A DNA stretch of 64,000 nt from Entophlyctis helioformis. Taxonomy: Eukaryota > Chytridiomycota > Chytridiomycetes > Chytridiales > Chytriomycetaceae. The stretch covers positions 107,210 to 171,209 of the forward strand of contig JAHLKH010000043.1 of assembly GCA_025526915.1 (NCBI GenBank), given 5' to 3'. Made by a program: the position numbers and the translations under genes. Below are positions 3,268-64,000 of the stretch, piece after piece; position 1 is the first letter of the stretch; each line of letters opens with the position of its first letter. The notes under the pieces were generated by a model. It made no database searches. It saw nothing but the letters and a program-made list of their open reading frames with translations, and was not told the origin of the DNA.

Positions 3268-6200
3268 TCAGCGGAGCGAGCGAAAGAACGCAGATGTCGT
3301 GCTCGTGCTGTTGCTGTGGCTGGTCTTGCTGCCATGGGCGGCTGCCGATGACGAGCTGGACGATGCTGATGGCGAGCTGGATGCCATCGACGAGGCCGAT
3401 CCAGCCCCAGCCACTCGCATGCGGCCCGTCCCGAGCCGTTTCCTGGTGGTCGATCCAGCTGCACTGGACGAGATCGGCCCGCCGATGCCAGTGCCAGTGC
3501 TTGCGCCAGCGCCAGTTGATGTGGTGCCGATACCCTTGTAGCTAAACAGCGACGAAAGACTGCCGCTGCGTGCTGATTGAGCAGACAGCACATGGCGCAC
3601 AGTGTTTGCAGCCGGCGGGCCAGGCTGGTCGATCTGAGCATCGCCGCGATGGCTGCTCTGCTGCCTTTGCTGCTTTTGCTGCTCTTGCTGCCCAGCATCG
3701 CATCCAGTCGCTGGCTGCACCTCAAGCGTCTGCCGATCAACAGGAGCATCGCCGCGTCCCTCGCTCGCGTCCACGACTACCGAAACGCCTGGTGCACCAG
3801 ACAGATCAGCGACAGTCGCGTGTGTCGGCTTCTCTTCGTGATGCACATGACCATCGTTGCGCGTCGACAGACTCAAGGTCGCTGCTGGCGTCGTCGCCAT
3901 GGCAGGTTTCGCAGTGAGCGTCACTCGCAATCGCGACGTCGCCAGTCCATTCCGCAGCATACTGAGTCGGATAGGCAGCCCAGACGTCTCCTTGGCAATC
4001 CTTGGTGTCGCCGGCAGCATCGTCGTCTTGGCAGCAGGCTCGGCACCAGAACCAGAGACCCCGCTCGGAGAGGCAGTGTCGTTGCATGCCTTGCTGTCGG
4101 TATTAGCCTTGGTGGACAAGGACGAGGCGGTCGGCAAGAAGAACGGCGAAACCGCGTCGGTCACCTTGACCATCTGCGGTCGCTGCACGCTCCCGTTCGA
4201 CACTCTCATGACGCGCATTCCAGGCGTGGTCGATGTGTGCGTTGTTGAGAGCGGCAATGACAATGGAGCAGACGTATCGCTCGGCCGATTGAGGTTGCTG
4301 TTGCTGCTGCTACTGCTGCTGCTGTTCGACTGTGCGAGCTTTCGTGTTGGCGTGGCAGATACACTTTTTTGTGCATCGAGCTCTTGATCCAGTTTCTGCT
4401 GCTGCTGCTGCTGCGGCTGAGGCGTGTTTTGGTCCAAGAAACGTCCATTGATTCTCGTATGGCTGTCCTGCGTTACGCTTTGCTCCTGTTGTGGCGGCTG
4501 ATCTTGCTGGCCAAAGCTGAAACCCGATGCAGGAATCGCAGAGGGTGCCGACCTCGATGCCGTCATGGTATGTAGGGTATGTGACCTTGATGGAGGGCCA
4601 GTTGGCGTCGCGAAGGCCGGTGTGTGCATAGCAGCCGATTGATCGAGTCGCGTGTCTGATAACGGCTGTCGACTTGGTGTGCGTGCCAGCAGAAAGTCTC
4701 CAAGTGGTTGGCGTTGGCTGCTGTGCAAAATGGACGGTGACAGCCGCAATGGCTTCATGGGCTGTGCGAGCAACGATGGAAACTCCATCAAGGACGGTGT
4801 TGAGGGAGACGGCTGCGACGAGTCGGACCGATGATAAGAGGCATGCGGCTGCCAATGATCGGCTCGCTGCTTCTTGTTGGACAGTGAGGCTGGCGAGTCG
4901 AGAGGCGATGACGACAGGGGAGCATTAAAGTTGCCAGATTGCTGCGAGGGATGCCGTTGGGATGACAACGGCACTGATGTTGTTGCTGCTGCTGCTGCTG
5001 CGTTTGGTAAAGACGACGATGATGACGACGATCGGGAGAGGTGCATGGCGACTGGTCTCATATTCTCGGCATTAAAGTGAGACGATGTGGTGGCCACGTG
5101 GGGTGTTGCTGTCTTGTTGGGCATGCGTCCATGTCCAGATGCAGACGCAGACGCGGATGCCTGCCCATTCGGCAGTTGCTTGAATGGAGAGCGCTCGTCG
5201 TGATGCTGTTTGGGGATGGAAGCCAAAGCTGCTCAACGGCCGCTTGTGTGCTATCGGCGTTGCTGTTGATGCGGATCTGACTGAAGGTTGTTGCATGGTC
5301 GGTGTTGCCGCGTCTGCCTCCTTGAGGGCCAAGTGACAGGGAAGTCGGGCTCAAACGGGGCATACGTCTCTGGATCACAGTGGCCCTCTGCGATCGCTCT
5401 TGCCAGGTCGGGAGGGAGATCCCTGTTGCCCATGCGAGTCAGCAACACGAATCCCAAGCAGGCCACGGATGGAGAGATGATGCGACGCCACTCACGACCC
5501 AATGACAAACGACAGCTCGTCAGAGATCTCCATGTCTGGTGGAAACGGGTGCAGAGGAACGAGACGGCCGAGACTGGGGTCGTAGACACGCTGATGCAGA
5601 AAGGTATAGTTGGCGAGCATGAACTTTTTTCGGTATCCCTTGACCAGCTTCGCGTTCCCGGGCATGTTGGGAAACGACTCCCAATTCTTGAGAACCTGCC
5701 AGCCACAACACGGAAGAGGCGAGACAGCAGCGCAGTGGCGATGAGTGGCAGGAATCGTGTTGGCAGCAAGTGGCGTGCATGGCCGAATGCCTACCGACTC
5801 TGCTCGTGTGTTTAACAATGCTTTCTTGGCCTTTGCAAGTCCGATCCCTTCGGGCGATGCCAGATAGTCACAGCCCGACAGGATGCACATTTCGCGAAAC
5901 TTGGTCATGTTCCAGTGCCGCAAGTCCTTGATCGTGAAGATGTCGTCGCGCCTAATCTCGATGGGTTTGGAGTCGAACTTTAGCTTGTAAATGACCCTGG
6001 AGCAGCCGTACGTCAATAAATCAGAGTCTTCTGTGATGGTTGCCGTGGTGACGCCAATGCGGTCAAAGAACGCGAGCTGCGCGTCCGCCTCGTATGGCGC
6101 GACGTAAAACTCCACGTCCAGCTTTCGCAGCTCCTGTCCATTCGCCAGCGTACGTCAGTGGGCTGGTGGGATGCCGAGAGTGATCGGGGTAGAAGCGACA

Positions 6201-25645: not shown

Positions 25646-25867
25646 CTCAAAGGGACGATTTGGGGATTTTGGATAACGAGCGTGGAACGAATTTGGCCAC
25701 TTTAATGGGCCCCATAAAGATACAATTACCAAGCGATTTGGAATTGGATTCGACCCGAGAGGCAACGAATAGATGCCCGCGTATCACACGATGGAAGGTT
25801 CGAGTCAGCAACGAGCATGCGACGACAAGCAGGCGAGGCACATCCAACGAGGGTCTTACCTTTATCG

Positions 25868-27307
25868 TTAGAAAAAGTGACCCGTTAGGTCGATCGGGAG
25901 GTGCCCCGATTCAAAGTTGGTAGTCAAACAAGTCACTGTATGGGATGAGTGACAGGTGACTTGAGGGCAGGCTGTCGCGTGTTGGTCGCTGCTGGACGAC
26001 GGATGGACCGTGTCTTGAACGCCACAGGACGGCAGGCTGATCTGGTCCCATGAGGCCACATGCGACTTGAAGTGTTTCCGCGTTTGAGGCTGTGGGACAA
26101 CAGACGGAGCATTTCGTGCACGCCACTGGATGAATAGATGCATTGCCTCGATGTCTGCAAGGTACTCTGTCGTGGCTGGATTGCTGTCGGCTTTGGTGTG
26201 CGTCAAGTAGAGCGGCCGTTGTCCAAAGAGCAGATGCTCCAGTGCAACCATCCCGATGTTGGTGGCTCCAAGCACGTCTCGGTGGTAGACGGTCGTGCAT
26301 GGTATGCACTCGTAGCGTCGCAGGTTGGTGCGGTTCTCGTATGGGATCCGCTGCTTGCACTGCGGGCACATCTGGCTGGTCAGGTTCTCATTGCAGCGGT
26401 AGATCTGTGTGTGTGTGTGTGTGCATGATCGTGTGTCAGTTGGTGTACAGATGGATGGATGGATGGATGGATGGCATATCCAGACGCACATAGGCATATC
26501 CAGATGACCGCAGATGCCTGATGAGAAACTTCTCAAACACAGCATGCCGGCCACCTTGGCCTGTAAAGTCGATGCCAAATGCCCACACAACGGGAATGTC
26601 CTTCTCTGTTGGCTTGTCACAGCGGCCTTGAGACGCAGCAGATGCGCGCTCTCCAGTGGTCGATCCTGCCAGCTTCATGATGCCCTCAAGAGCGTTTCCG
26701 CGATCAGACATGCTGTTGCTGCACATGGTGAACCGCTTGGCCTTGACCTTCTGTGGAATGCCATGCCATGCCATGCCATCCAGTGTGATCAGCAGGCAAT
26801 CAAGCAGCATGGCGGTCATGTCAATGGACATCCAGAAACAGGGAAAACGTACCCGTGCATTCAGGAATGGCGTGCAGTATGCATGGCAGCGCAGATCCCA
26901 AAAGGCTCTCTCGCCTGCTGAAACCTTTGGATCGGCATGCTTTGCTGTCTTGAATGCAATGGCCGCCTGGATGTCGGCTGCCTTGGCAAGTCGATCAGCA
27001 AACCTGGCACAGGAGGCAGGCACTGTGAGTTGATCTGGTCAAGAGTGCGCATGGCAGAGTCATTGCATGCATACCACCGCTGAAAGTCACGCTCAGCTTG
27101 AAACATGCCAGAGGAGAGCACGTAGTTGGACTCGAGCTTATACGAAAAGTCTCTGAGATCGACCAAGATGCTGGACGCGCCATACAGGTACCGCTGGCCC
27201 CAATCAAAGCTGACAACGCGAACAGTCTGGTAGCCTTGGTCAGTGAACAGGTTGTTGGCTTTGATGATGTCGCGCAGTCGCTGCGAGGCGTAAAAGTTGC
27301 GCTTGCC
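25868..27307 (-). other. Fanzor RuvC catalytic core and zinc finger (sub-region of the fusion gene)
   Basis: Exon 27307.. begins GKRNFYASQRLRDII and carries RuvC-I FDWGQR, the Asp codon being 27205..27203. Exon 26750..26490 carries KVKAKRFTMCSNSMSDRG and VVWAFGIDFTGQGG, where bacterial TnpB would have its RuvC-II glutamate and this protein has none. The last exon, 26404..25868, begins IYRCNENLTSQ; the Glu codon 26389..26387 matches the relocated glutamate described for Fanzors. Zinc-finger cysteines are C13, C16, C33 and C36 of that exon, and RuvC-III Asp is 26278..26276 in HRDVLGATN. After the core comes a roughly 110-residue C-terminal extension I do not recognise. Family knowledge: Fanzors use such a core with a guide RNA from the element's 3' end. 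Confidence 0.85.
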
Positions 27308-30300
27308 CTGTCATGCCATGGCATGAGTGAGGAATGCACAATGCATGTGCACCAATGCGCGAGTTTAGCATGCAAGTGGCTTACAGGATTGGGCGTGTAT
27401 GGCTTGGCGGCTGACGGGTCGGCTGGATCGGCAGCTGTGGATGGCATGTCAGTCGGTGTGGACAACAAATGCTCGTCTGGATTGGCACAGCAACTCACAT
27501 TCGCCGTTAATGTAATCGGGCTCGCCATCAGCCTCGTCAACAAGCCACGGCTGCTCGCCTGAAGACGCCGCGTTGGGATCTGCAGATCGAGGCGGCAGTC
27601 AGAATCCATGTGTGCACCATCGCATTCAAGCACGCCACATACTGCGAGGTGACTCTGGACGGTTTGTGCAGCAGTCCAGTGCCAGCTGGTAGATGCTGTA
27701 TCCATCCGTCATGATGCTGCCAAGTAGGATCGCCTTGGCTGGTCTTGCTGGACGCACAGCATCAATCGCAGCCTTGATATGCTCCTCGCGCTCCTTGCCA
27801 TCCAGACCCTGCTCATCGGCCTCTCGCGTCGCCTTGGCTGTGGCCTTGGCAACCGCGTCCATCTCATCTTTGGCTTCTGAAGGTGTCTGGAAGCGACCTT
27901 TCTTGGGGCGGAGACCTGGGAGAAGGATGTCAAAGATGCAAACCTCACGACTTGCGCTGAATGCGTCTTGGATGTCCTTGTTGGATGACGCAAGAGCTGA
28001 CTTGGCATCTTTGTAGCCTTGGAGAAAAGTGCAGTGTCAGCATCAAATTGTGTACACATGGCATATACAGGCAGTGCGACCAACCAAGTGCAGCCAGAAG
28101 CTGTAGTCTCAATGCCTGCAAAGCAGGATCCTGATTGCCACGGATGCGCTCATCCTTTGTCCTCATCACCGCCCAAAAGAGGGTGGTCTCAGTGATGAGG
28201 ACAAACGGATCGCGGCCTGCAGGCTGCGGACACAACTTGAGGGATGAGCCTGCGAGATCACACAACTGCTTGAACTTGCCGGCCTCTGACAGCGACTTGT
28301 TGCGCACGACCGCCGTGAGCCTGTGCAGTGCTTGTGGGATCTTGACAACGCGTCCGTCTTGTCTGGTTGACAGTGGCGTGCCAGACGTGGCGTCCCTGGT
28401 GGCTGTATCCATTGCCTTGGCAAATTCCGCTGCCTTGTCAGCAGATATACCAGGAATCAGTCGGTGGATTGCCCAGTCAATGAGCATCGACTGGTGGGTC
28501 ATGAAGTGCACAGCAAGCATGCCACAGATGCCCCGTGCCAGATTTTTGTAGATGTCGTTCCGAGCAGCTGCACACAAACTGTCGTCAAGCCTGCCAGGCA
28601 AAACGGCATGCATCATGCTTGCGTCCATGTGCACAATGGCTGACAGCAATGAGCCGGCCTGCATCGCGTCCATCTTGGCTGCCCGCGCCACACCAGCCCG
28701 CATCTTGGTCATGCTGTCCCGGATCATCTGCTGTGTCCATTCGCGGTTGATGATCATCTGCATGATGGTCACAATCCACGAGTGGGCCACATGCTTTGTT
28801 GCCCGCGGCATGACTGACTCCTGACCGGTGAGAATGTAGCCCAGGTATCGCAGAAGCATCGTGACGGCTCCCTCGCCACTAGAGGTGCTGTTTGTGAGCA
28901 CCTTGAGCAGATCATTTGCCGATGGTACTGCCCGTTGTAGTGGTGGCTCGATGGCTGGTGGTTGGGCATCGGTGCTGCTGGATGCGGCGGCTACTGCTGC
29001 TGGTGCTGCTGTTGCTACTGCTGGTGCTGTGTCGTCGGTGAAGGTGCAGATCTTGACCATTGTGCCCGCCTCAAGTCTCACCAAGTCGCCATAGTGAGCG
29101 ATGTCGGTGTTGCTGCAGAGCGGGCCCTCGCCGTACATGCGCCGGGCATTAACGGGCCATCTGAGGACGCATCCAGCAGCGTAGAGCCACGCGCTCTCGT
29201 CCTTGAAGTGATCAGGATCAATATACACATATTCCATCTCACCATTCCTCCTGGCCTCCATGACGCAGAACTTGAGTGGCAGCGGTGCATATGGGTCGAG
29301 TGCGACGAGCTCTTTGACGATGGCGCCGATCATAGTGATGCATGCACGCCGCACGTCGGCCGTGTATCGGTACACGCCATTGAAGATGCTTTCTGAGACC
29401 AAACCGCGGGTCTGTGTTGCCGGCGCCGTCTTGGCCTGGTGTCCAAAATACTTTGCAAGCATTGGATCTCCAGAGAGCATTTCCTGTGTGTAGCACAAGT
29501 CAACATACACAAAGCCAGACATGCAGAGCAACATGGCAATCCAAACTCATACCTCCATTTTGACAATCTGCTCAGGGCGATCGTATGTGCTCTCCACTGG
29601 CCTTGCCTCATTGCCATGGATGGCAGCAGCAGCCGTCATGACTGGCAATGCCATCATGCGGTGGATCTTTTCAAGCATCTGCTCTATCGCCGATCTTTCA
29701 CCACGATCGTATCTGTCAAAGAACGCACCGGTCAGCACACACACTCAAGGCACATGCCATGCCATGTGCCACTTACGCCCGTGTCTCGGCATCAGATTGA
29801 GCCTGGCGGGCTTGCCTGCTCGCATCCTTCTTGTGCTCCTGGATGAACTTCTTGGTCTTGGCCTTCTCAGCTTGCTCAGCTCGCTCCTTATCACGCTCAG
29901 CCTGCATGGCCGGTGTGACCAGGTATGGATCCTGCCGTGGTTGAATGCAATGTTAGGCATGCATCTTGAATGTGCACAAGATGCTCGCAATCACAAGCCT
30001 GCAGTTCAACTCACAGTCGTCCTTGTGTCTTGAAGCACACCAATGTGAAAGACCTTGTCGCAATCTGTGCCTCTATCATCTGCGGCTCGAGGTGGCAGCA
30101 GCATCTTGCATGGTTTTGGTGGCTTGACGGCCTGTTGAGTGGAAGGATAAGCAATCGCAGCAAGCCATCACATGCAAACAGAGCCAGCAAACGCAAAGAC
30201 GCACCGGTACTCGATTGATAATCGACTGCAGCATCTGCTTTGCTTGGTCATAACACTCGCCAAATTCTGACACTTGGAAATCAGCATGCCTGACATCCGT

Positions 30301-32557
30301 TGGGTTTGTCAGGGCATTGAGCGTCTTTATGGCCGTTTCGCGAATATCAGCCACAGCTTCTGGGGTCGCAATCCGTGTGCTCCTTCTGAGCGGCTGCTTT
30401 GTCTTTTTACCCTTGACTGTCACACAAATGCCGTGATCAGTGGTGAATACACAATGCCACACTGTGTCAACCCGTGCAGAGCGAACCTGGCGTTTTTAGA
30501 CGCCTGAAAGATGCGCATTTCAAGCCTGGATACTTCTTGAGCCGCTCATTCAGTCTTGCTATCACCTTCTGCTCGCCCAGTAATGGATCAAGTCGGCAGC
30601 ATTGAAGATCAGCAACAGCATGCAGTGGACAGCCAAGACACGCATCCAAGCCTCGCAAAACCCACCAATGCATGATAAAGAATCTTGCCAGCCGGGCTGA
30701 GCCTTGCATATGCTTCTTTAGCGATACGCCAGTCATGCACAGCCTGCAGCAGCTGCTTGCTTGCATTCTCGCAGATATCAGCAAGGATGTCGCGGCCGTT
30801 GAGAATGTCGTCGGCGAGGAGGTCTGCCGTGCATCGGAGAACGCAGCTAAACACGACACGGCAGCCATTGAGCATGACAAAAACGTCGTCCAGTTGCCTT
30901 GTGTTGACAATGTGCTTGGCAAGCACCATGACTTCATCCCGTGTAAGGTGCCAAACCGCACCACTGGCATTGCCCTTCAGCTGCTGTGCCGTGTGGCTCA
31001 AGCAGCAGCACTGCGGGCCGTGCATGCAGAGGCAGATCTGCCAGTGGCATCCATCAGAGTCAGTGCCATGAGAATCCTCCAGAGATCACAAGCACGCCTA
31101 CTTTTTTCGAGCCGAGGCTGTCCTGTTGGCAGTCCTGCTGTTGCCATTGGATGATGCATGCATTCATGTCAATGCCATGCTGTCCAAGTGCATCCAAAGC
31201 AAGACTTACAGCGGTATCATTTGAGCAAAAACATCCCCATAACAACCATGGCTTTGGTCTGTGAACTCTCCAATATCTGCTCCAGTTTCGTCACGGTCGA
31301 GAAACACCGCAAAGGCATTGCTGAACGATTGAGCAAGAGGCTTGCCGCCGATCTTGTACATCTGCAACATAAATGAGGCCTTGAAGACGTCCACAAACAT
31401 CCTGGCAAGTCTGGGTCTTGCAGGCGTTGACAGAACTCTGCGACAGTGATCCCTGCCCATGTTGCCTCAAAACGAATGCATGCCATAATGCACTTTGCAG
31501 CCGTGACGATCCCTTGCAAGTCATCATTGCAGCATCACGAGTAAGTCAAGGTCACAGCGCATGGCATCCAAATTGCAAAGCAGGCAAGCCAACATACCAA
31601 TCTCATCACAATGAAAATAGTCATTTCTCGCTGCGGCTGCCGCCAACCGGCAGATGTCAAGAATCTCTGGCAAGTCAAAGGTGGCTGCAATAGATGCTAC
31701 ACCTGGGTGGTTGTACGATCTCATCTGTGCAATCTGTCTGCCGCGCATTTGCAGCAGCAGGACAGGGCAAATCCCCGCACAATGAAAGATAAGGTCGGTA
31801 TCACCACTGATGACGACGACCGGCACATTGCTGTCAAGAAAGGCGTGTGAGCCATGGATTGGAGAGGCATGCAGAAGACCAACCAACCTTGCTTCGCGCA
31901 CGCGGCATGCAATGCAAACATCCGCCTCATTATCGCAAAGGCACACAGATGACCCTTCCCCAAAGTATCCAAGAAGACCCCCAATGGCCCCACAGATTGC
32001 CGCCTTACGCTCGCATGTCAATGGAAACGCCCACTGGAGTGACTGGATCTCGTCCCTGGAAGGGCACTCAGTCAGCACGGCATGCAAATCAACAGCAGCA
32101 AGTGGCATACTTTGTGAGCCTGTTGCCTTTCTGGTCTGCTTTTCACTTGGCCACCATTGTCTGGATCGACAATGCTGCTTCCAAATTTACCCGTGCCCGC
32201 TCAGTGCGGACAGCCTTGATATTGGTGTTGAGAAGCGAGCCATCGACATGGAGCCGGACCATGTGGAGCTTTCCAATCGATGCTGCGAGGCTGGCAATGA
32301 GTGGCTCAAGTGTCGGCGTCCAGTTTTCCTCTGGCTGTGCCAGCAGTATTGGTGCTGCTTTGTAGATATCGCCGGCAAAAAGACTGAGAACGTCCACATG
32401 CACAACGCACTGGATGGGCGGACGCTCTGTGTTGTGCTGCTGCAGTGTTTGATGGGGCTGTACCACGACCTGAATTGCACCCGAGAGAAGGGTTGTGGGA
32501 TCAAGGGTTTTGCTACCACCTGCTTGTCGATGGGACAGTCGCGCCGACGACTCCCAT
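25868..32557 (-). CDS. XPG/FEN1-like nuclease fused to Fanzor (TnpB-like RNA-guided nuclease), about 20 exons, with apparent frameshifts
   Basis: N-terminal module (32557-29790): XPG N-region with VVHVDVLSLF and MVRLHVDGSLL, then XPG I-region with LCDNEADVCIA, VVVISGDTDLIFHC and RNDYFHCDEIG; all expected acidic residues are present. Clear exons are about 32500..32147, 32055..31888 and 31830..31598, then from 31512. After helical segments comes a charged coiled region (EQAEKAKTKKFIQEHKKDAS). A GTAAGT donor near 29776 joins in phase to YDRGERSAIEQML, leading into the Fanzor part (29740-25868): SESIFNGVYRYTADVRRA, KAILLGSIMTDGYSIYQLAL, RuvC-I VVSFDWGQRYLYGAS, VVWAFGIDFTGQGG, YRCNENLTSQMCPQC, a C4 zinc finger (CPQC...CIPC) and RuvC-III HRDVLGATNIG. 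Apparent frameshifts lie near 31430 and 27025, so it may be a decaying copy. The exact start (ATG 32557, MGVVGA) is tentative. Confidence 0.78.
26405..26475. repeat. TG and GGAT microsatellites in the intron between Fanzor catalytic exons
   Basis: A TG run (about 26408-26424) and a GGAT tetranucleotide run (about 26449-26473) fill most of the 85-nt intron (26489..26405 on the minus strand) separating the exon with IDFTGQGG from the exon with NENLTSQ. The GTGCGT donor and CACACAG acceptor are intact. Confidence 0.8.
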
Positions 32558-32821
32558 GCGTGTTGGGCGTGCTTGTTGGTTTGTTGTTGCGTGTTGTTGT
32601 GTGTCGTGGCAAGTCGCGATCTGGTGTTTGTTTGCATTGGCATGCTCTGATTGTTTGGCGCAACACATGGAGCACTGGTCTGTGTGTGTGTGGAATGGCA
32701 TGCTCCTCAGAGAGAGAGAGAGCGTTGCACATGACTATGCATTCGCCCCTCTTTATTCATGGAGGACACACACGCACCGCCCAGCGAGACAGCAGGCGCT
32801 GCTACCTGCACCACTGCCGTT

Positions 32822-32974
32822 GCTGTGCTCGCATCGCGCAGTGTCAGCACTGCGCAAGGGCTCTCTAGATCGACCAATCAGAGCGATTCCACCAGGATCG
32901 ACCAATCACAGCGATTCCACCAGGATTGACCAATCACAGCAATTCCACCAGGGGTAATGGTATGAGAACCGGGC
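32822..32974. repeat. terminal repeat block of element copy 1: three 28-bp units plus stem-loop
   Basis: Three nearly identical 28-bp units stand head to tail at 32868-32895, 32896-32923 and 32924-32951. Each contains CCAAT (GACCAATCA) and ATTCCACCAG. A 23-bp end segment, 32952-32974, runs to GAACCGGGC. Inside the block, GCGCAGTG and CACTGCGC form a perfect 8-bp stem with a 4-nt loop (about 32836-32855). The whole block is the reverse complement of 54043-54225, with few mismatches. It is upstream of the fusion gene and ends about 28 bp before the RPN12 start codon. Confidence 0.93.
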
Positions 32975-33002
32975 CACTTTTTGATCCAATCCAAATCCCA
33001 CG

Positions 33003-37865: not shown

Positions 37866-38122
37866 GCCATACTCGTTAAAGCTGTTGGCTGTGCGTAGAT
37901 CACTCAGTGATGGCATCCCCCTGGTCCGGCACGTCCATGGTGTTGGCTCCATAAAGTATGCTGGATTTTAGGTGATGCCAAAGTTCATTCCAAGAAGATT
38001 CCCAGTCCCCAAGACACTAGATGCCATACCCTTTCGAGCTTTAGGCCGTGCGTAGATCCCTCAGTTATGTCATCCCCCTGGTCCAACACGTCCGTGGTGT
38101 TGGCTCCACAAAGTACGCTGGA
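37866..38122. repeat. direct duplication of about 100 bp (37866-37965 and 38022-38122)
   Basis: Two copies about 156 bp apart share GCCATAC, then GTGCGTAGATC, CATCCCCCTGGTCC and GTGTTGGCTCCA with scattered mismatches. They lie between the STRAD-like gene and the tRNA-Gly gene. Neither copy has a convincing ORF. Confidence 0.8.
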
Positions 38123-38298
38123 ACACAGCATGGACAGCCTGAAGAAATGCGCACATTTCGCGAGGCGAGTGGACGCACATCTTTCCGTGAAGACAGGCGG
38201 CGTGCAGGATCGTCCAAAATGAATGCCACACTGCCTGAATGCTGCAAAAAGAGAGCGAGGCTGCCTGTCCATTCCACATGTGGAACGGGCGAAAAGTG

Positions 38299-38370
38299 TG
38301 CATCGACCGGGGGTCGAACCCGGGCCACGCGCTTGGAAGGCGCGGATGTTAACCACTACACTATCGATGC
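38299..38370 (-). tRNA. tRNA-Gly (anticodon TCC)
   Basis: A 72-nt intronless cloverleaf on the minus strand. The acceptor stem GCATCGA pairs with TCGATGC, with discriminator A at 38299. The A box TAGTGTAGTGG and B box GGTTCGACC are intact, and the anticodon loop CTTCCAA carries anticodon TCC. The T arm is CCCGGGTTCGACCCCCGG-like. It lies about 290 bp upstream of the ankyrin gene and is the only tRNA I found in the window. Confidence 0.95.
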
Positions 38371-38656
38371 TCCTCTTGTTGAGAGATTTTGCTTGCTTGA
38401 GTACTTGAACCGTACTTGTACAAACCACAAGAATGGAGTATCCCAGCCTCGCCTGCCCAAAGCATGGCACTCTGTGCCACCAACCAACCGCACTGCAAGC
38501 AGCGCTTGGGCACACCACCGCACAGATGCGATCGGCCCACGGACAGCCCACCGACAGCCCACAAGTCATCCAGCCTTGAGATCCGTTCTGCCGACTTTCC
38601 CAATCATCGCCCAACACAGCGACAACACCTTGCCTCTGCAAGCACCAACGAACACC

Positions 38657-40378
38657 ATGGACCACGCAACCGGCAGCCGCTCGGCAGCAGTCGACGCCGA
38701 CACGGCATTCGGCACTGCGACGTTGGCAGCAGCCCTCGAGCACAGCACAGCAGCCAGCACGGGCGACGACCACCAGCCGCCGCTCGATGGCTGCAATGTG
38801 GAGCAGCCGAAGCAGCCGTCTGGCCGCAACGAGCCGCTGCCGTTCGGTCGCAGCCACTGGGACGGCAAGCCGGCAGAGATCCATGCCATGATCCTCAGGG
38901 CCGCCGGCCCGCTCACGCTCTTTGTCAACGGCCTGCTGGGCGACAGCGACCGTCTCAGCTACCGAACAAAGCGAGCGCTGTGGACGGATGCATTCGAGGT
39001 CGACTGGGACGGCGATCTGGCGCTGCTGCCCGATGTGCCGCTGACGGCCGACAACGGCCTGTGCGAGGTGCGGTCGCGGTCCATGTATGCCAGGCTGTGC
39101 GCTCGCTTCCCCGACAGGCTGGCCCGCGGCGACGTCTCGGAAGCCAACTACTACTCGGGCGGCACGATGGTCCGCCGCCACCGCGAGCTGCTGCTCCACG
39201 TCCCAATGCGGCGTGGCTGGTTCGACCTGCTCGACTTCAAGTTCACCGTCTGGCTCAGCTGGATGGCGATTGCGTTTGGACACCCGCTTCTCCTCAAGCA
39301 CCTCGTCGCCCACCACCGCATCAACCTGCGAAAGTTTGGCACGTTTGGGGAGTTTATGGCGATGGATCTCGCGGCTCGGTCTGGGTGTCTGGAAGTGGTG
39401 CAGATGCTGCACGATGCAGACAGCCGTGCGTGCACGACAGAGGCCATGGACCAGGCGGCATTGGGCGGCCATCTGGATGTGGTTGTCTGGCTCCACACCA
39501 ACCGCACGGAAGGATGCACGACGGATGCCATGGACGGCGCAGCAGAGGGCGGCCATCTGGACGTCATCCAGTGGTTGCACATCAACCGAGCAGAGGGATG
39601 CACCAACGATGCCATCGACCTGGCAGCCATCTCTGGCCATCTGGACGTCATCCAGTGGCTCCACGCCAACCGCACAGAAGGATGCACGATCAACGCGATG
39701 GATCTGGCGGCTGCAGGAGGCCACCTCCCTGTTGTCAAGTGGCTGCACAGCCATCGGACAGAGGGATGCACGACCAAGGCGATGGACTATGCTGCTCGAC
39801 ACGGCCGACTCCCAGTTGTCCAGTGGCTGCATGCCAACCGCAGCGAAGGATGCACGACCGATGCCATGGATGGAGCGGCAGAGGGTGGCTATCTTGATGT
39901 CGTCGAGTGGCTGCATGCCAACAGACGCGAGGGATGCACGACCAAGGCAATGGATGAGGCAGCCGCATGCGGCCATGTACCCGTGCTGGAGTGGCTCCAT
40001 GCCAATCGGACAGAAGGTTGCACGACCGGTGCCATGCTGTGTGCGGCTCAAAACGGACACGTTGACAGCATCGCCTGGCTGCATCGGCATCGCCCAGACA
40101 CGTATACCCCGTGTGTTCAACAGCGCGTCGAGCAACGGGCGGCTCGATGTCCTGCAGTGTCTCCTCGACTGTGGATACAAGGTCGATCTCCGGACCATCC
40201 GGCACGCCAAGGACTCTGCGACGAGGGCGTTTCTGCTGCGCACGCTGACGCTGGAGGAGACGAGCAGCTGCATCGCGAGGCGATTGACGCACGGGCAAAG
40301 CCACGCGTTGTTGAGCAACTGGCAGCAGCCGTTGCCAAGCACAAGGAGTCCAGCAGTGCAATGGCTGCAAGGGAATAA
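38657..40378 (+). CDS. ankyrin-repeat protein, C-terminal end frameshifted
   Basis: Start ATG 38657 (MDHATGSRSAAVDADT) is chosen because extending the frame further upstream would run through the tRNA. Residues 60-240 are an unrecognised N-terminal domain with LRAAGPLTLFVNGLLGD and WFDLLDFKFTVWLSW. From about 39360 there are nine to ten ankyrin repeats of 33 residues, very uniform, of the form AMDxAAxxGHLDVVxWLHxN followed by RxEGCTT. At about 40101-40112 (a run of four C) the frame in use loses the repeat pattern, while the +1 frame continues VFNSASSNGRLDVLQCLLD and runs on to about 40553. A one-base deletion or sequencing error is likely. The stop at 40378 belongs to the shifted frame. Such WLH-type arrays are common, function unknown. 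Confidence 0.78.
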   Translation: MDHATGSRSAAVDADTAFGTATLAAALEHSTAASTGDDHQPPLDGCNVEQPKQPSGRNEPLPFGRSHWDGKPAEIHAMILRAAGPLTLFVNGLLGDSDRLSYRTKRALWTDAFEVDWDGDLALLPDVPLTADNGLCEVRSRSMYARLCARFPDRLARGDVSEANYYSGGTMVRRHRELLLHVPMRRGWFDLLDFKFTVWLSWMAIAFGHPLLLKHLVAHHRINLRKFGTFGEFMAMDLAARSGCLEVVQMLHDADSRACTTEAMDQAALGGHLDVVVWLHTNRTEGCTTDAMDGAAEGGHLDVIQWLHINRAEGCTNDAIDLAAISGHLDVIQWLHANRTEGCTINAMDLAAAGGHLPVVKWLHSHRTEGCTTKAMDYAARHGRLPVVQWLHANRSEGCTTDAMDGAAEGGYLDVVEWLHANRREGCTTKAMDEAAACGHVPVLEWLHANRTEGCTTGAMLCAAQNGHVDSIAWLHRHRPDTYTPCVQQRVEQRAARCPAVSPRLWIQGRSPDHPARQGLCDEGVSAAHADAGGDEQLHREAIDARAKPRVVEQLAAAVAKHKESSSAMAARE

Positions 40379-46297: not shown

Positions 46298-48241
46298 TCA
46301 AGAAGTAAACTCGGAAAACTTGGACGTAAACTCGAGGAGCTGCTGCTGGATCTTGGAGCTGTCGATATTGTTGCTGTTGTTGCCATTGTCGCGGTTGATG
46401 GACCAGAACGACAAGAGCGACACCCACGACGTGGACTTGGCAAACTCGACCACAGCATCGGCATTGTCGAGCGAAAAGACGCCAGTGCCGCCGTTGACGC
46501 CGATCATGGGAGTGATGCCGATATCGACAGCGAGGCCGAGTGCCTTGAGCTGCATGTGGGCAGCCACGGACGACAGGACGATGGTGTTGGCCAGGTTGGG
46601 CTGCGAGCCCGTGTAGTTTTGCGTGAGGAGGTTGATGAGGGCGGGCGGCTGGGCGGCATTGACGGCAGCCTGGATAAACGAGATCGCAGGGCCTGCGAAA
46701 CCAGTGCTGCCGACCGGGAGCGTGTAGATAAACTCGAGGTTGGAGTAGATGCTCAGGAGCGATTCAACGGCTGCGAGACGAGCCACGGTCGCATTGGCGT
46801 TGGCGAGCGTCGAGCCTTGGATGTTGAAGTCGAACTGGCGGATGCCGTAAAAGTCGATCAGAACGCGGTAGGCAGACAGCAGCTGAGCTGCAGTGCGGTT
46901 GGCTGCAGACAGCTCGACGCCGACCGGACCGCCAAACGATGCAATGACCTCGGCGCCGTTGGAGCGGGCGGCAACGATCCGCTGGTTGATCGTCGGGTTG
47001 CCTTGGCCTGGCAGAATGTCGTACGCACCGCCCCAGCTTGGCTTTCCGGCGTTGTTGACAATGAATGCGAACGTGACGTACTTGAGGTTCTGCGACTTGA
47101 CCGCCTGGCCAATGTCGAGGTTGAACTGGTCGGCCTTGAGGTAGGGCGAGAAGCGGCGAGCGGGAGGGTCGACCGGGCCGACACTGGGATACCACTCCAT
47201 CTTGGCATTGGCGCAAGGGACGAGAGAGAGCTTGTTGGTGAGCCAGTCGACGTCGAGACAGTTTCCAGTCGCGGCAGCCTTGATCTTCTTGTTGAAGCGA
47301 CCGAGCGTCCATCTCTGGTTGATGGCGGACGTGCTGCAGTTGTAGATGCCGATGGTGGAAGCACTGCCAACCGCGTTGACGTTTCCGCCAAAGACGTCGG
47401 TGCAGAATCCGGTGGCGACATTCAGGAGACGGTCGAGTTTGTCGGCTTGGAAGATGGAGCAGCGCTGAGCAATGCCGAGAACCTTTTTGGGTCGAGTGAC
47501 ACCGCCCTGGAGAGGTGCGAGGGTTGCAGATGGCAGGTGGCAAGTGGCAGATGCAGATACATGAATCTCGTGAGTGACAGCGCGTCGGACATGTCGGACA
47601 AAGGCGGACAACGCGACATGAATGATAATCAATCAACGTACTGCACACTTGTGGTTAAAGTCCTTGTGGCGGATCAGAATGCTCTTGGGGCGGTTCTCGG
47701 GACTAAACTTGGCCAGAGTGTAGCCAGCGCCAGGCGCCGAGCAGCTGCGTAGAACGACACCGCCACTTGGGCCGACGGCAACACAGTTGTTTGTGTTGAA
47801 GACGCGCAGAGCACCGCTAGAAAGGCGCGTGTATCGCTGGCCGGTCGTGTTGAAGCAAGTGCTGAGGACGATGTTCGAGTTGATGGTGGTGACGGTGTTG
47901 CCAGAGACGGTCAGACACCAGCCGGTCAGCGGGTTCTTGATGTTGGAGTTGGAGATGCTCGCTGGGACGGAGAAGGTGGCGCAAAAGTCATCGGTCGTGA
48001 GGGGCTTGTTGATGACGGCAGCGCCGTTGGTGCCCTTTGTGTTGATGAATGGGTGGATGAGACGTGCAAAAGAGATGGACAGGCGAGATAAGATGCGTAA
48101 GATTGGGGGCCAAGGAGCATGACAAGTCATGGCAAGCACTCATGAACGTACAACACACTGGCCAGGAGTCGTGAGCCAGACAAGGTTCTGGGCGCTGGCA
48201 AGCGAGGCGAGCGAGGCAAGAGCAATGGCGAGAACGTGCAT
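46298..48241 (-). CDS. secreted ricin-B-lectin / GH18 protein with degenerate chitinase active site
   Basis: Exons 48241..48152, 48034..47642 and 47506..46298 keep phase and give 563 aa. Residues 1-17 (MHVLAIALASLASLASA) are a signal peptide. One ricin-type beta-trefoil follows (SNIKNPLTGWCLTVSGN, NNCVAVGP), with a second lectin-like part in FCTDVFGGNVNAVG and TGNCLDVDWLTNKLSLVPC. The GH18 barrel begins around FSPYLKADQFNLDIGQAV and has VTFAFIVNNAGKPSWGG, AEVIASFGGPVGVEL and the late strand IGITPMIGVNGGTGVFSLDN with LLSFWSINRDNG. The catalytic DxDxE motif reads DFNIQ and the MDY motif reads QNY, so hydrolysis is doubtful. A cell-wall or carbohydrate-binding lectin role is the safer inference. 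Confidence 0.88.
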
Positions 48242-55779: not shown

Positions 55780-58573
55780 ATGACGGTCCGCGGCTACTTG
55801 AGAATGCTCAAGCTAGGCTGTGCCGTCTGGCTCTACCTTGCTGGCACAGCACTCAGCCAGGTCGTGCAGCACGTGGTCCACAGCACACTGCAGCAACAGC
55901 GACCAGCAACAACAGCAACAGCAACAGCAACAGCAACAACAGACGACTTTGTCAGCAGCATGTTACACATTGACGTGCTAAGCGTATTCTACTCGCAGCT
56001 CATCGCCACAGCATCGTTCAGCTTGCCCGACTCCAAGGATGCCTGGAAGGCCATTATCGAGCCGGCCATCGAGCTGTTCATGGTGTCGGTCGGCGACGGC
56101 CACACCATCAAATTCCACATCGACGGTCGCCGCGGAGACGCAGGTATAAAGATCGAGCACCGACACCGCGCACTCAAGATGCTGCATGCGGCGGTCAAGG
56201 TCCTGCGGTATGCGTTCCGCCGTCAAGAATACAAGCAGATTGGGTTGATGACCAAGTAGGTTTGCTACTCTGTACTGTGTGGCTGCCTTACTAACCATCT
56301 TCTGCTGTCGGCCACTCAGAAAGGAGACCCATGCTCTCGGCCGATTTTTCACATTGACACAGACGGACAAACAGCACATTGTTGAGGCCCTCAACGAGCT
56401 TGTTGGCAAAAAGAAGGGATGCACGGTATGCTGGTGTGATTATGAGGCTGATGTATGCATCGCCCGCCATGTTCATGAGCCAAGGTAACATTGCCTTGGA
56501 TCATTCTGCCGTGACTGATGGCTCACAGTCTCCATTTTGTGACAGTGACAAGCCAGTCGTTGTTGTCTCCAATGACTCTGATCTGGTTGCTCATTGTGCT
56601 GGTCAATGTGGTGTCGTTGTGACCCACTTGCAGCATGGGCGGTTTAACCAGCCTCGCTCATACAACCATGGCGGTATCGCCTCAACTGCGTCTGCATTGG
56701 GCGTTCGGGATTTTCGCGGTGCATGTCAGGGTGTCGCAGCGTTTTCTCATACAGACTTTTTTGGCCGCAATCGCCATGGTGGGTTGCTGCGCCTGTTTTG
56801 TTGTCTGTCATGACTCACATGCCATTTGTTGTCTTCATGCGCAATTCTGCTTGTATTGCCTTCAGGGATCGCGGCCGCTGCCAAGTTCATTAACGCGTGG
56901 TTCGATCGCAAGGCGGCCAAGTTGGATGGCAAGGAGGCCGAGCTCTATAGAAAACTCGAGACTCCTGACGAGGCCAAGGTGTTCATGTATGACCTCAGGG
57001 ATGCGTACATCAAGGACTTGGCCAAGAGTCATGACAAGAGCCTCATACCAATGTTCAAGAACGCATTCTCAGTCTTTGTCGACTAAATCGAGCCCAAAGC
57101 GCCAGTTGGCACGTTTGCAGCCCCGATTGTCGCGAGGCAAGTCTATTCTTGAAGGATATCATGGACATATTGGCATTGACACGATTGCATGCCTTGCACA
57201 GATCTGGGCCTCAACAAGGCAATGCCAACCACATGTATGTCAACGTGACAGCCTCGGCTGAAGCCAAGTATGCATGCATGCCATCTGTGGTGTTTCTGGA
57301 AAACTGACATGGCTTTCCTGTTTCTGATGCTGCGATCTCGTTATTGTGCAGGTGCTCATCGCCTGGTTGCTGTTTGATCCATACTGCGCAGCAGCTGCAG
57401 CAGCAAGCCAAGACTGGTGTCCCACCTGTCCACTTGACGAGTGATCGCGTCAAACAGCTTGCCAATGGCATTGTTGCCAGCAGGCGGCTGGATGTGGCAT
57501 TCAAGGAGGTCAATGGCTGCCACGTGGCATTGGACGCCATCATAGAGCAAACAGTTGATCTCCTTGCAAGCAAGTATGATGGAGTCACTAGCCGTGACAT
57601 CCTCGCAGCCATCTGCAGGGCGGCTAGTGCACAGCTGCTGCAGATTGTGCACGAGCAGTCCATCGAGCCAGATGATTACATGGTGCTCAGTAAGGCGGAT
57701 CAGATGATTTGGCATGCTTTTGTAAGTTGCTGCACGGCTTGGATGCATGCCGTTGCTCTTGCACCACACACGGTTGTTGATCTTGAATGTGACTGACTTG
57801 ATCCACTGCTCCTGGACAGACTGTTGCTCCAAGAATGAAGACGCAGCTGGATGAGATCGTGCATCCACAAAATGCCCCCACCGGCATACAGCCACTCCAA
57901 GTATATTCTGCTTGCATTGAAATGGTTGATGCAATCCACTCACAGTGCCGTTTTTGTTGAATGTGCTATTGCAGATACAGGCAAGAAGAAGACCGAGTAC
58001 CGCGGACGGATCAGCACAAGAGTGGCGCCGGCAGACACGTTTGCAGTTATCCATGATGAGGCCACAAACCTGCTGAATGAGTTGAATGGCCTCAAGAATC
58101 GACGTATCAGCAAGGGCAATTCAATCACGCTCGTCAATCAGCAGCAAACGGCCATTGCCCTGCTGCAGAAAGTCATTGAGCAAGCTGCCGTGCGTCTCAT
58201 CTTCCACTGACAGTGTGTGCCTGTACTGATTTGGCACGATTGCTGACCATTCTACTCCACAGGCTGGTCCTCCTCCACTGCTGCCCAAGTCATCTGACAA
58301 CGATCGCCCTGAACAAGCACACCGCAAGAAACTTCTCATTGGTGTACTTGATGACACTAATACGACGGTAGGTTACAGGGCACCGTTGGTGATTGTGACT
58401 GTGTTGCGTGCACAAGGAAGGGATGCCTGATGCTGCATCCAACCACGGCAGGCGCCATTCCAATTCTCTGAGGAGACAGAGGCTGCACATGCAAAGGAGA
58501 ATGCCGAGCGAGCTGAGAAGGCTGCGACCGAGAATACCATCAAGAAAAACAAGAAGAAGTCAGGGCGACTGTA
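55780..58573 (+). pseudogene. XPG/FEN1-like nuclease of element copy 2, interrupted by a stop codon
   Basis: Start ATG 55780 gives [13 protein letters not shown], similar to the XPG/FEN1 N-terminus but with Thr instead of Gly at position 2. Exons 55780..56255, 56320..56484, 56546..56778 and 56866.. are in phase. Motifs: MLHIDVLSVFYSQL, IKFHIDGRRGDAG, CWCDYEADVCIARH, VVVVSNDSDLVAHC and TDFFGRNRHGIAAAAKF, the last formed across an intron. Acidic residues match the Rad2/XPG active site. A TAA at 57084-57086 follows AFSVFVD where copy 1 reads on. Beyond it the coding pattern resumes (GIDTIACLAQIW, DILAAICRAASAQLL, TGKKKTEYRGRISTR, LLIGVLDDTNTT) and ends KKNKKKSGRL. A 364-residue truncated product covering both XPG regions is still possible. 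Confidence 0.75.
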
Positions 58574-58857
58574 ACGAGTTGCAAGGTGCCTCTCCTTGGG
58601 CACTGATGCCACGTGCCAATGGCTGCATGGGCATTATTGGAACGCGCCTTTTTGCCAGCAGTTGATGCATCAGACTTGCCCCAGCTGTCGTCTTGTGCAT
58701 CCGACTGCAGGTACCCTCCATCTCCCCTGTACCTGGCTCTACTACTGATCTGACAATGAAGTCTTGTGCATCCGACTGCAGACCGACCCCCATACTGTTG
58801 CACGACAGCTCAAGACAAGTCAGCGACCGAACGACCAACCGACCAAGCAGCAGCACC
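58574..58857. other. spacer with a 21-bp direct repeat
   Basis: GTCTTGTGCATCCGACTGCA occurs at about 58690-58710 and again at 58761-58781. No gene supported. Confidence 0.6.
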
Positions 58858-59877
58858 ATGCCTCCTGGCGGCCCAGGCCAGCCAGCCTGGATCAGCCAGC
58901 AGCAGCACGACGCCGCCGCCAGCAGCAACTGGCTTGGGCAGCTCCAGGCAACTGCCAGCAGCCTCAGGCACGAGCAACACATCGCCCACCAGCAGCTGTG
59001 CAGCACCAGGCTCGCCTACGACGGCTGCCTGCTCGCCATCCAGCAGCAGAGAGCCTGGCTTGACATGGGGTTTGTTGCGCTGCTTGACATCCACAAGGCA
59101 TGCTTCAACCCCCCAACACCAGCCGGCCGCCTGCGCTACGAGCAGGCCACAGCGGCATTGGAGGAGGGGTGGGCCAAGCTCGACAGCCTCCGGCTCAAGC
59201 AGCAACACCTCGAGCAGACGACCAGCAGCCTGCAAGCTCTCATAGTGCACAAACGAGCCGCCGTCGACCAGGTTGAGCACCAGCTCCTTTTGTGCCTGTC
59301 TGATCAGCTTCAGCCCAGCAGCAGCAGCAGCAGCAGCAACACCAGCCGCAGCTGCACCAGCCGCGGCTGCAGCACCACCGACCTCGCCAACCGTTCCATC
59401 TGCACTGGCCCCAGCCATGTGCAGCCCCAACCGCTCTGCATGCAGCAGCTGCCCGACCAGCCCATCCGCAGCCCCGGCCGCTCTGGCCCTGGCAGCATGC
59501 CTGGCCTGACGCCGCCGCCGCAGCAGCATCGTTCTCCCATTCCGACCGCCACTGCTCTGGCCCCGCCTCAGCAGCACCGACCGACCCAGCCGCCTCTGGC
59601 ACCAGCCAGCCCGGTCAGCAGGGTCGAGCACCCGTCCGTCCCGTACCCGTCCGTCCCGTCCCCATCTGTACCGCTCTGCAGCCCAGTCGCCAGTCCTGCA
59701 GGCTCGCCCATCCAGCCGCCTGCAGCACGCGCCGATTGGCCAACGCGATCTGATTGGTCAACGCGTGCCAATCGGTCAGCAGCAGCTGATTGGTCGGCAC
59801 CAACCGATTGGTCAGCCGCGTCTGATTGGTCGGGATCAGCCTGTAACGGATGCCGCCGCAGTCTCGTGGTCACGTGA
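58858..59877 (+). CDS. unidentified ORF with coiled-coil N-terminus and P/Q/S-rich tail
   Basis: Single open frame from ATG 58858 (MPPGGPGQPAWISQQQ), 339 aa. Residues 20-150 form long helices with LGQLQATASSLRHEQHIAHQ, LDMGFVALLDIHKACFNPP and LEQTTSSLQALIVHKRAAVD, ending in a predicted coiled coil. The rest is low complexity (S, P, Q). The last 45 residues, with DWSxxx repeats, are encoded by a tandem series of ATTGG motifs and may not be real protein. Helical N-terminus plus disordered tail would fit a retroelement gag-like protein, but no zinc knuckle is visible. It lies between the element copy and the retrotransposon; I give no function. Confidence 0.45.
   Translation: MPPGGPGQPAWISQQQHDAAASSNWLGQLQATASSLRHEQHIAHQQLCSTRLAYDGCLLAIQQQRAWLDMGFVALLDIHKACFNPPTPAGRLRYEQATAALEEGWAKLDSLRLKQQHLEQTTSSLQALIVHKRAAVDQVEHQLLLCLSDQLQPSSSSSSSNTSRSCTSRGCSTTDLANRSICTGPSHVQPQPLCMQQLPDQPIRSPGRSGPGSMPGLTPPPQQHRSPIPTATALAPPQQHRPTQPPLAPASPVSRVEHPSVPYPSVPSPSVPLCSPVASPAGSPIQPPAARADWPTRSDWSTRANRSAAADWSAPTDWSAASDWSGSACNGCRRSLVVT
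59735..59850. repeat. cluster of about six ATTGGTC/CCAAT motifs
   Basis: GATTGGTC or close variants recur roughly every 18-20 bp, with CCAATCGG and ACGCG between them. The motif resembles that in the 28-bp terminal units of the Fanzor elements, but the surrounding sequence differs. Confidence 0.8.
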
Positions 59878-59935
59878 CCTGCTGGCATTGATCTGGACGC
59901 GCCTCGCCCAGACTTGGCTTGGCCCTGTTGTTGTA

Positions 59936-60053
59936 GTTGTATCCAGCCGTAAGCCTGTATACTCACTGCCCTCTGCCACCAGGTCTGTGCCTGAGTCTCA
60001 ATGAAGTTGTATCCAGCCGTAAGCCTGTATACTCACTGCCCCTCTGCCACCAG
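59936..60053. repeat. 47-bp direct repeat, 70-bp period
   Basis: GTTGTATCCAGCCGTAAGCC and the following TGTATACTCACTGCCC occur at 59936-59982 and again at 60006-60053 with one indel. No gene is supported in 59878-60400. Confidence 0.9.
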
Positions 60054-60399
60054 ACGGCCAGCCGCTCTCGACGAGGACAGTTACAACAACAACCAACGCC
60101 ACCGACGCCGCCAGCCGCCGTTACCTGCGGCGTCGATTTCTTTTTGTGCGCCTATGGGCCTGTCTCGCACGCCCACCCCTGGCGCCGGCCCTGCCGGCGC
60201 TGCGGCCGACGCCGACCCGGACGCCAACAGTGCCTTGTTTGTCTCGCCAGGCACCTCGTTTGCCGACAAGCCGTCACACCTCCTGCATGGGTTTACGGGT
60301 AACTCTACCATCTGGGCTGATAGCCGCACGCGTGATTCTGGGCTTGGCTCCATGGCCAGCGGTGCAACAGGACGATGTGCAACGAGACGATGGGCGGTC

Positions 60400-60605
60400 T
60401 GACAGACGGCGGGTTTCAGTACACAAGGTCATTCATTGATATAGCTTCGTAGTAATAACGGCATATGCACGGGCAGTACCTGACAGACGGCGGGTTTCAG
60501 TACACAAGGCGACGACTGGGGCAAGTCGCCTTGTGGTCTGTCAGGATTCAAGTGGGACGCGCGACCGGTTGCACGCGTGTCACGTGATCGCGGCTGACTG
60601 TTACA
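60400..60605 (-). repeat. 3' LTR of the Ty3/gypsy element (inner edge resolved)
   Basis: On the minus strand, downstream of the chromodomain stop, a purine tract AAGGGGGGC (60616-60606) is followed at once by TGTAACAGTCAGCC, the usual start of Ty3/gypsy LTRs. The inner LTR edge is therefore 60605. The LTR contains a long inverted repeat (CACAAGGCGAC ... GTCGCCTTGTG, about 60505-60537) and a TATATCAATGA sequence. CCTTGTGTACTGAAACCCGC with the following CGTCTGTCAG occurs twice (about 60400-60430 and 60480-60510). The outer edge is not certain because the other LTR is outside the window; about 60400 is a guess. Confidence 0.7.
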
Positions 60606-60752
60606 GCCCCCCTTGACGAGGGATCCTCTGGAGAACAATCGGCACAGACAAAGAAGGAAGCCACATTCACGTCCAATGCATCCCCAGCGTGGCGGCGGCT
60701 GCGACGGACCGGCGGCTGTGCTGGGAGGGCGGCGAGGTACTGGTCCAGCAGA

Positions 60753-63700: not shown

Positions 63701-64000
63701 GTCAATCGCCGCAATGGCCGCGTCGGTTGCCGTATCTGCGTCCCCACAGCTGGTCAGGGCCATGATCTCGACATATGATGACTCGTCCGCATGGAAATCC
63801 TCGTAGCTGACGAACTCAATGCCGTGCTGCGCAGCAATGGCCTCAAGGGACATCGGAGCATGATCGCAGGGTGGTTCGGGTGCTGGTTCAGATGCTGTTT
63901 CGGGTACTGGTTCGGGTGCGGGTTCGGGTACTGGTTCGGGTGCTGGTTCGGGTGCTGGTTCGGATGCGGGTTTGGATGCGGGTTCGGGTACTGGTTCGGG
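60753..64000 (-). pseudogene. pol: Ty3/gypsy chromovirus pol polyprotein, 5' end beyond the window, one frameshift
   Basis: Retrotransposon polyprotein read from beyond 64000 (P/E-A/S repeats at 64000-63862) to stop 60753. Domain order: reverse transcriptase with SPFAAGIVIAKKKDGGLRLC, DLRDGYYNIRI and YMDDILIYSE; RNase H with HVYTDASEFAIGGW; integrase zinc-binding region (HEPAHAGHQGRERTYGRLRA ... CDACQRF); integrase core with ACDIAFMP, VSDRDARF and HQETDGQSERTIRTLKD (the D,D,E residues); and a C-terminal chromodomain WEIDAIVGHKV ... SYLGY. The order RT-RH-IN-chromodomain defines a chromovirus. Near 61671 the frame changes by one base between EDLAA and LFLNRW, so this copy is probably inactive unless the base is a sequencing error. 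Protease and gag are not in the window. Confidence 0.94.

Follow-up and report, generated by a model that had tools for sequence, protein, structure and literature searches.

Can one gene couple an RNA-guided DNA nuclease to an enzyme that would process the ends of the break? The question is raised by a locus of the chytrid Entophlyctis helioformis, which lies in a 64,000-nucleotide stretch of contig JAHLKH010000043.1 (positions 107,210 to 171,209; we call the whole stretch the window, and number positions from its first letter). An earlier note on this DNA had read the minus strand from 32557 to 25868 as a single intron-rich gene, in which an XPG/FEN1-like 5' nuclease is fused to a Fanzor. 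Fanzors are guided nucleases that cleave DNA (Saito 2023, PMC10432273). Judged by its sequence, the locus is one of many copies of a DNA transposon, and the intron-rich gene of this element is predicted to encode an XPG/EXO1-type 5' nuclease, a charged linker and a Fanzor; the catalytic residues of both halves are retained. That the fusion exists as one gene we consider very probable, on the evidence of the reading frames described below.

In the window copy, the frame is open from the linker to the end of the Fanzor. The splicing of 12 exons, from 30416 to 25871, yields 1241 stop-free codons, followed by a terminal TAA at 25870-25868, and all 11 introns of this part measure 63-102 nt and are GT-AG. 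When the XPG half is included, the complete gene comprises 19 exons, starts at an ATG at 32557, and has GT-AG boundaries at 18 of 18 introns. The junctions were set by hand, and the exons of the XPG half were placed by means of a sibling copy, L039, and the deposited gene model P0002. In the stretch made up of the bridging exons and the initial 100 codons of the exon after them, the alternative frames contain 6 and 20 stops. The motifs named in the earlier note for the XPG side (HVDVLSLF, HVDGS, CDNEADVCIA, ISGDTDL and NDYFHCDEIG) were all located on the minus strand. The GTAAGT donor and the acceptor that it had singled out, at 29776-29713, do keep the frame, as do ten further introns. Its Fanzor, with RuvC and zinc-finger motifs down to 25868, is confirmed by a match of the spliced part to PF07282 (Cas12f1-like TNB; E 1.7e-9, 38.1 bits against a curated cut-off of 26.3).

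The fused frame is uninterrupted in another copy of the element in the same genome, C298 (also L042; minus strand, from about 22009 to a TGA at 15297-15295). There, the open frame assembled from 18 exons runs to 1800 codons: it opens shortly ahead of the first catalytic Asp, crosses the linker and closes with the RuvC/zinc-finger region; the start point and one acceptor were picked for openness, and the extreme N-terminus is provisional. Sixteen of its 17 introns are GT-AG and one is GC-AG. Read in the two alternative frames, these exons contain 36 and 53 stops, and every one of 2000 exon sets slid at random contained at least 6. At the protein level, the XPG half of P0002, a sibling of the window family, is 33% identical to the C298 copy (E 6.7e-47); the window's linker and the start of its next exon are 28% identical to it over 397 columns (E 4.5e-27); and the RuvC/zinc-finger parts of the window and C298 copies are 86.5% identical. 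The possibility, raised in the earlier note, that homologues are always encoded as two separate genes thus does not hold in this genome.

The linker also bears on the alternative that one element holds two neighbouring genes, transcribed or cleaved into separate proteins. Among six copies (the window and L039-L043) the 11 donors are GT throughout, and the acceptors are AG except at intron 5 of L041 and L042, where the aligned site is AA; in L042 the AG actually used sits a few bases further on. The four linker exons have the same lengths in L039 as in the window, and in L040-L043 they differ by multiples of three in 15 of 16 cases (L040, -3, -3, 0, 0; L041, +17, -3, 0, +81; L042, +18, -3, 0, +81; L043, +18, +6, 0, +48). 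Over the linker exons and the next 100 codons, the window, L039, L042 and L043 have no in-frame stop. Two genes would fit the deposited models P0001 and P0002, which end on the XPG side and leave the halves unjoined, and would fit the result that the Fanzor part matched no database protein among candidates of 683-2172 residues. The ends of P0001 and P0002 are neither proof nor refutation of a longer transcript. Since splice sites and frame are conserved across the linker exons of different subfamilies, since the linker matches its counterpart in C298 as protein, and since that copy is open throughout, we set the two-gene alternative aside as very unlikely.

The arrangement recurs across the genome (assembly of 29.57 Mb in 482 contigs, to which all recurrence counts refer). 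The PF07282 profile scored at 150 places out of 205 candidates; the Fanzor is therefore a large repeat family. The XPG exon of the window has 154 matches, whose identities, like the counts of exon order that follow, are given among the matches listed: they range from 36 to 100%. For the order of exons we used a 77-residue XPG piece from another subfamily (149 matches) and the window's first Fanzor-side exon (at least 151 matches), and merged the matches into 147 XPG places and 140 Fanzor-side places. Within 9 kb of an XPG place, the Fanzor-side exon follows downstream in the same orientation in 114 of 147 cases, 94 of them with a spacing of 2118-2317 bp; in no case within that distance does it precede the XPG place or occupy the other strand. 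The zinc-finger exon follows further downstream at 61 of the paired places. In separate lists, this last exon was found within 12 kb downstream of XPG at 54 of 124 places, upstream at none and on the opposite strand at three.

Several observations must be weighed against a fused gene that is intact and general. The XPG half of the window copy is itself broken: its arch exon contains a premature stop, single bases are deleted, and the window copy as assembled is therefore unable to make the whole protein. The single gene of the earlier note is upheld by related copies. Compared with the majority of 21 aligned copies, the window's XPG half has 4 deleted and 20 substituted positions in about 1300 bases, part of them noncoding, and 15 of the 21 carry indels, which reflect decay or assembly error. 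In the window family, the arch exon is offset by one base; this was rejected as a frameshift, since P0002 has a short intron at that place. In the linker stretch there are 2 in-frame stops in L040 and 9 in L041; another frame of L041 has none, in keeping with its one-base shift. Furthermore, among the matches listed, the Fanzor-side exon is missing from 33 of the 147 XPG places, and XPG from 26 of the 140 Fanzor-side places. No XPG half was found in the five stretches obtained upstream of zinc-finger hits lacking an XPG match (three more of the eight asked for fell beyond the contig end); truncated copies, or Fanzors without XPG, thus also exist.

Might the family then be dead, its fusion once functional and its present copies drifting? 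The indels in 15 of 21 copies would be expected in that case, and so would an exon divergence near or above that of introns. Between the window and L041, introns 1-4 are 60-71% identical and exons 1-4 are 47-57% identical. Codon positions 1 and 2 diverge at least as much as intron interiors in 14 of 15 comparisons, and four-fold sites diverge significantly more than intron interiors in the middle part only (Fisher p 5e-6 to 0.05; 0.065-0.8 in the other parts). The ratio of nonsynonymous to synonymous substitution rates (dN/dS) along the gene, for the window against L040, is 0.57 in the linker and then 0.42, 0.37, 0.36 and 0.44; if introns are taken as neutral, these values overstate how clearly the protein is under selection, a point against the fused nuclease proposed here. 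Yet dN/dS is below 1 in all pairs computed (0.19-0.76), the catalytic residues are invariant, one copy of 1800 codons is open, and about 20 copies are 96-98% identical to the window copy. We therefore regard a dead family as highly improbable.

The same comparisons reveal an uneven pattern along the element. From 30204 to 27308 of the window, and most clearly around the variable exons 28017-27385, the short introns are of near-constant length and more conserved than the exons between them. In comparisons of the window with L040, L041 and L043, identity is 88-92% over the RuvC exons plus introns, 77-92% over the last exon, and 78, 56 and 56% over the linker parts. Because the 3' end is so much more alike than the linker, it is either exchanged between families or held by another constraint. 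Subfamilies with distant XPG halves (33% between P0002 and C298) share a RuvC region of 88-92% identity (27307-25871 against L040-L043), as mosaic elements or exchange of 3' ends would produce.

How does the element move? The limits given in the earlier note fit the span of the gene, and the transposon extends beyond them, to 32975 and 25708 (Table 1). Similarity to siblings breaks off at about 32981-32975. In L039 the 3' repeat, reverse-complemented, reads GGCCCGATATTCATACAATTACC, and agrees with the 5' repeat at 19 of 23 bases. A 25-base pattern of the 3' terminus, with up to three mismatches, occurs at 166 places in the genome, and the reversed-pattern control at none. Among 12 elements checked at both ends, five have exact 8-bp target duplications (C102, C7, C6, C5 and C63), C18 and C67 match at 7 of 8 bases and C22 at 6 of 8, and four (C60, C342, C10 and the window copy) have no convincing duplication. 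The duplications are 8 bp long, and not of the TA type of the Spizellomyces punctatus element SPu-1. We also observe that L041, L042, L043, L004, L006 and L008 share a flank, ATTTGCCGGC, just past the GGGCC terminus, which suggests that the 3' end of their subfamily extends further than that of the window family.

These ends suggest a second alternative, in which the fused protein is real and its XPG half serves excision or insertion, cutting the inverted repeats or trimming intermediates in place of a missing transposase, with the Fanzor otherwise employed. The element has inverted repeats and 8-bp duplications, and the exons of the fused gene occupy most of the span between the ends of the window copy. 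No separate transposase was noticed in the stretches read, where no search was aimed at transposase families, and a fold search of the central region of the Fanzor for a hidden transposase gave no result. XPG/FEN nucleases are, however, structure-specific, and we know of none that joins strands. Moreover, 8-bp duplications are typical of DDE transposases, so that a transposase acting in trans is the simpler account; an element elsewhere could supply it. We consider a transposase role of the XPG half unlikely.

The window element is flanked by a PSMD8/RPN12-like gene on the plus strand (PF10075) and, on the other side, by a minus-strand glutaredoxin gene (PF00462). Among the neighbours, at 46298-47632 (minus strand) and 38045-40378 (plus strand), are one frame that matches ricin-B-lectin weakly, narrowly below the cut-off, and one with ankyrin repeats.

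Table 1. Features of the fused element, and the second XPG half of the window.
Feature	Position	Strand	Basis
Whole element including both terminal inverted repeats, 7268 bp	25708..32975	-	Limits of sibling similarity, L039 and others
5' terminal inverted repeat, GGCCCGGTTCTCATACCATTACC	32953..32975	-	Sibling comparison
XPG/FEN1/EXO1-like nuclease half, 4 exons (32557-32111, 32055-31888, 31830-31598, 31512-31210), broken	31210..32557	-	P0002, L039, GT/AG check
XPG half, C-terminal part (exons 31134-31102, 31037-30666, 30568-30487)	30487..31134	-	L039; partly P0001; splice sites
Linker exons joining both halves (30416-30205, 30131-30015, 29931-29777, 29712-29553)	29553..30416	-	Frame, splice sites, C298 protein match
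Intron highlighted in the earlier note, GTAAGT...TTTGACAG, 64 nt	29713..29776	-	Splice sites in sequence
Large central region (exons 29483-28085, 28017-27643, 27579-27499, 27434-27385)	27385..29483	-	Recognition/WED part by position
RuvC exons (27307-27075 with VVSFDWGQRY, 27003-26853, 26750-26490 with FGIDFTG)	26490..27307	-	Hand-set splicing
Last exon: C4 zinc finger, HRDVLGATN, stop	25868..26404	-	PF07282, E 2.2e-8 on exon frame
Candidate guide-RNA region, stop to 3' terminus	25708..25867	-	Conservation
3' terminal inverted repeat; window copy is a variant	25708..25730	-	Comparison with L039 and others
Second XPG half plus linker, at which it ends; other subfamily, broken	55781..58575	+	Sequence match, alignment rows

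What kind of enzyme is the XPG half? In an alignment of ten such halves, 34-95% identical to the first row, all seven acidic residues of FEN1/EXO1 and the K/R pair occur in order and are invariant in 10 of 10 rows, the acids being assigned by FEN1 numbering. The order of strands and helices is that of the EXO1, FEN1 and XPG (Rad2) nucleases, and two fold-search programs, one of them Foldseek, both ranked EXO1 first and assign the FEN fold to the predicted model. The XPG half of L039 has 519 open residues. The earlier note had proposed profile searches of each half: the Fanzor side is recognised by PF07282, and on the other side Pfam XPG_N and XPG_I match neither the 3 proteins nor the 10 XPG rows searched. 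XPG_I_2 matches 8 of the 10 rows at E up to 10, with a best value of 2.4e-4; row 1 scores 17.1 bits, below the cut-off of 24.2. Searches of Pfam, NCBIfam and PDB sequences with the XPG halves returned nothing of the XPG family, and a PDB profile search with the XPG family gave chance matches only. Two further results tell against the assignment, namely a probability of only 49.8% in the profile-profile comparison by hhalign, and a weak structure model (predicted local distance difference test, pLDDT, of 47). Given the lack of a Pfam XPG_N or XPG_I match, we call the XPG half superfamily kin and not a Pfam XPG member; taken together, profile and fold comparison point to kinship with FEN1 and EXO1. 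Six database proteins match it, all from Entophlyctis helioformis (7994 scored candidates), and no relative was confirmed in viral and prokaryotic contigs.

A nuclease of this kind might process RNA instead, in guide-RNA maturation, or might be a DNA-binding relic. XRN-type 5' exoribonucleases do appear among the Foldseek matches, with weaker scores; the DNA enzyme EXO1 is first by both fold programs, and all catalytic acids are retained. We think such a role, or a relic, quite improbable, and continue with a nuclease acting on DNA ends as our preferred reading.

Two other features of the window touch on the XPG half. A host EXO1-like gene (5492-6154, minus strand) carries XPG_I (PF00867) and has human EXO1 as its best PDB match, so that this gene and two transposon XPG halves all lie within one 64-kb window. 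Beyond the second XPG half, within 55781-64000, is a retrotransposon-like frame on the minus strand with a Tf2-1-like SH3 match (PF24626; 28.4 bits, under the cut-off of 30).

The Fanzor half conforms to the motif of Bao and Jurka 2013 (PMC3627910), D-X(125,275)-[TS][TS]-X-X-C4 zinc finger-X(5,50)-RD: in the window protein the gap from the RuvC-I Asp to TS is 188, and TSQMCPQC...CIPCTTVYHRD follows. On the other side of the scale, no solved Fanzor chain was matched in PDB sequences at E up to 10 (except one unrelated chain, E 0.28), and the central region gave no convincing fold match from a low-confidence model (pLDDT 48.9). In several of the copies L103-L110, exon 5 of this region contains alanine/lysine-rich runs of very different lengths.

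Downstream of the stop, about 160 nt up to the terminus are conserved in 21 copies, and we regard them as a candidate source of the guide RNA. In this region the covariation term was +0.4, with a double change in 1 of 36 pairs, a further result on the unfavourable side, and Rfam returned one sub-threshold miRNA match only. In view of this lack of covariation, the putative guide RNA is argued from position and from analogy. The analogy is with the chytrid SPu-1 elements, in which an 88-90-nt RNA derives from sequence beyond the gene, at the 3' repeat (PMC10432273).

SPu-1, with its Fanzor SpuFz1, is in several ways like the present element: both are chytrid Fanzor elements with inverted repeats, one reading frame and a conserved stretch from the stop to the 3' repeat, and no transposase was found between the SPu-1 repeats, just as none was noticed here, without a dedicated search (PMC3627910, PMC10432273). 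SPu-1, however, is about 2.1 kb long, with one 633-residue frame, 33-bp repeats and putative TA duplications (PMC3627910, PMC10432273), whereas the Entophlyctis element is 7.27 kb long, with 19 exons, about 1800 residues, an XPG half and 8-bp duplications. Fanzor1 in the IS4-type elements of Ectocarpus (ESvi-1B) does share inverted repeats and 8-bp duplications with it, and, unlike it, has no XPG half described in the sections available (PMC3627910). Indeed, no mention of XPG or FEN1 occurs in the main text, so far as available, of PMC3627910, PMC10711439 and PMC10432273. The earlier note knew of no described fusion of this kind, and our search likewise found none in the literature it covered, which left most subscription papers and preprints outside its reach.

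The two halves can also be compared with their separate relatives. With EXO1, FEN1 and XPG (Rad2) the XPG half shares the acidic set with K and R, the strand and helix order and the best fold matches; unlike them, it is too diverged for Pfam XPG_N and XPG_I and forms the N-terminal part of a transposon protein. As for the other half, we know of no TnpB with a fused end-processing nuclease. TnpB of IS200/IS605 has the RuvC and C4 zinc finger of the Fanzor half and, unlike it, is prokaryotic; its guided cut is proposed to favour copying of the element, through recombinational repair from the element-bearing copy, and what Fanzors do for transposons is described as still open in the discussion of Saito 2023 (PMC10432273).

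How, then, might the fused protein act? The earlier note had suggested that one polypeptide could both make a guided break and trim flaps or 5' ends as the element moves; the single polypeptide is supported by the frames above, and the double action is a prediction. A guide RNA from the conserved 3' end would direct the Fanzor half to matching DNA, for example an empty allele or an excised donor site, and a break would be made there. The attached XPG/EXO1-like half would resect or trim the ends of the break in the 5'-to-3' direction, and repair would then proceed by copying the element from its other copy, in place of simple end joining. EXO1-type enzymes resect 5' ends. For this mechanism as a whole, a guided break with attached 5'-end resection that favours copying of the element, we judge the chances to be about even. 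The stronger claim, that the protein is a self-contained, gene-drive-like "cut and resect" enzyme, which makes a programmed double-strand break and performs its own 5' resection to bring about recombinational copying, we advance tentatively, as possible and somewhat improbable.

A natural fusion of a Fanzor with an end-processing nuclease points to a role after the cut, one that can be tested directly if the two sets of catalytic acids are changed separately. The fusion may also represent an evolved, single-chain design that pairs guided cutting with 5' resection.

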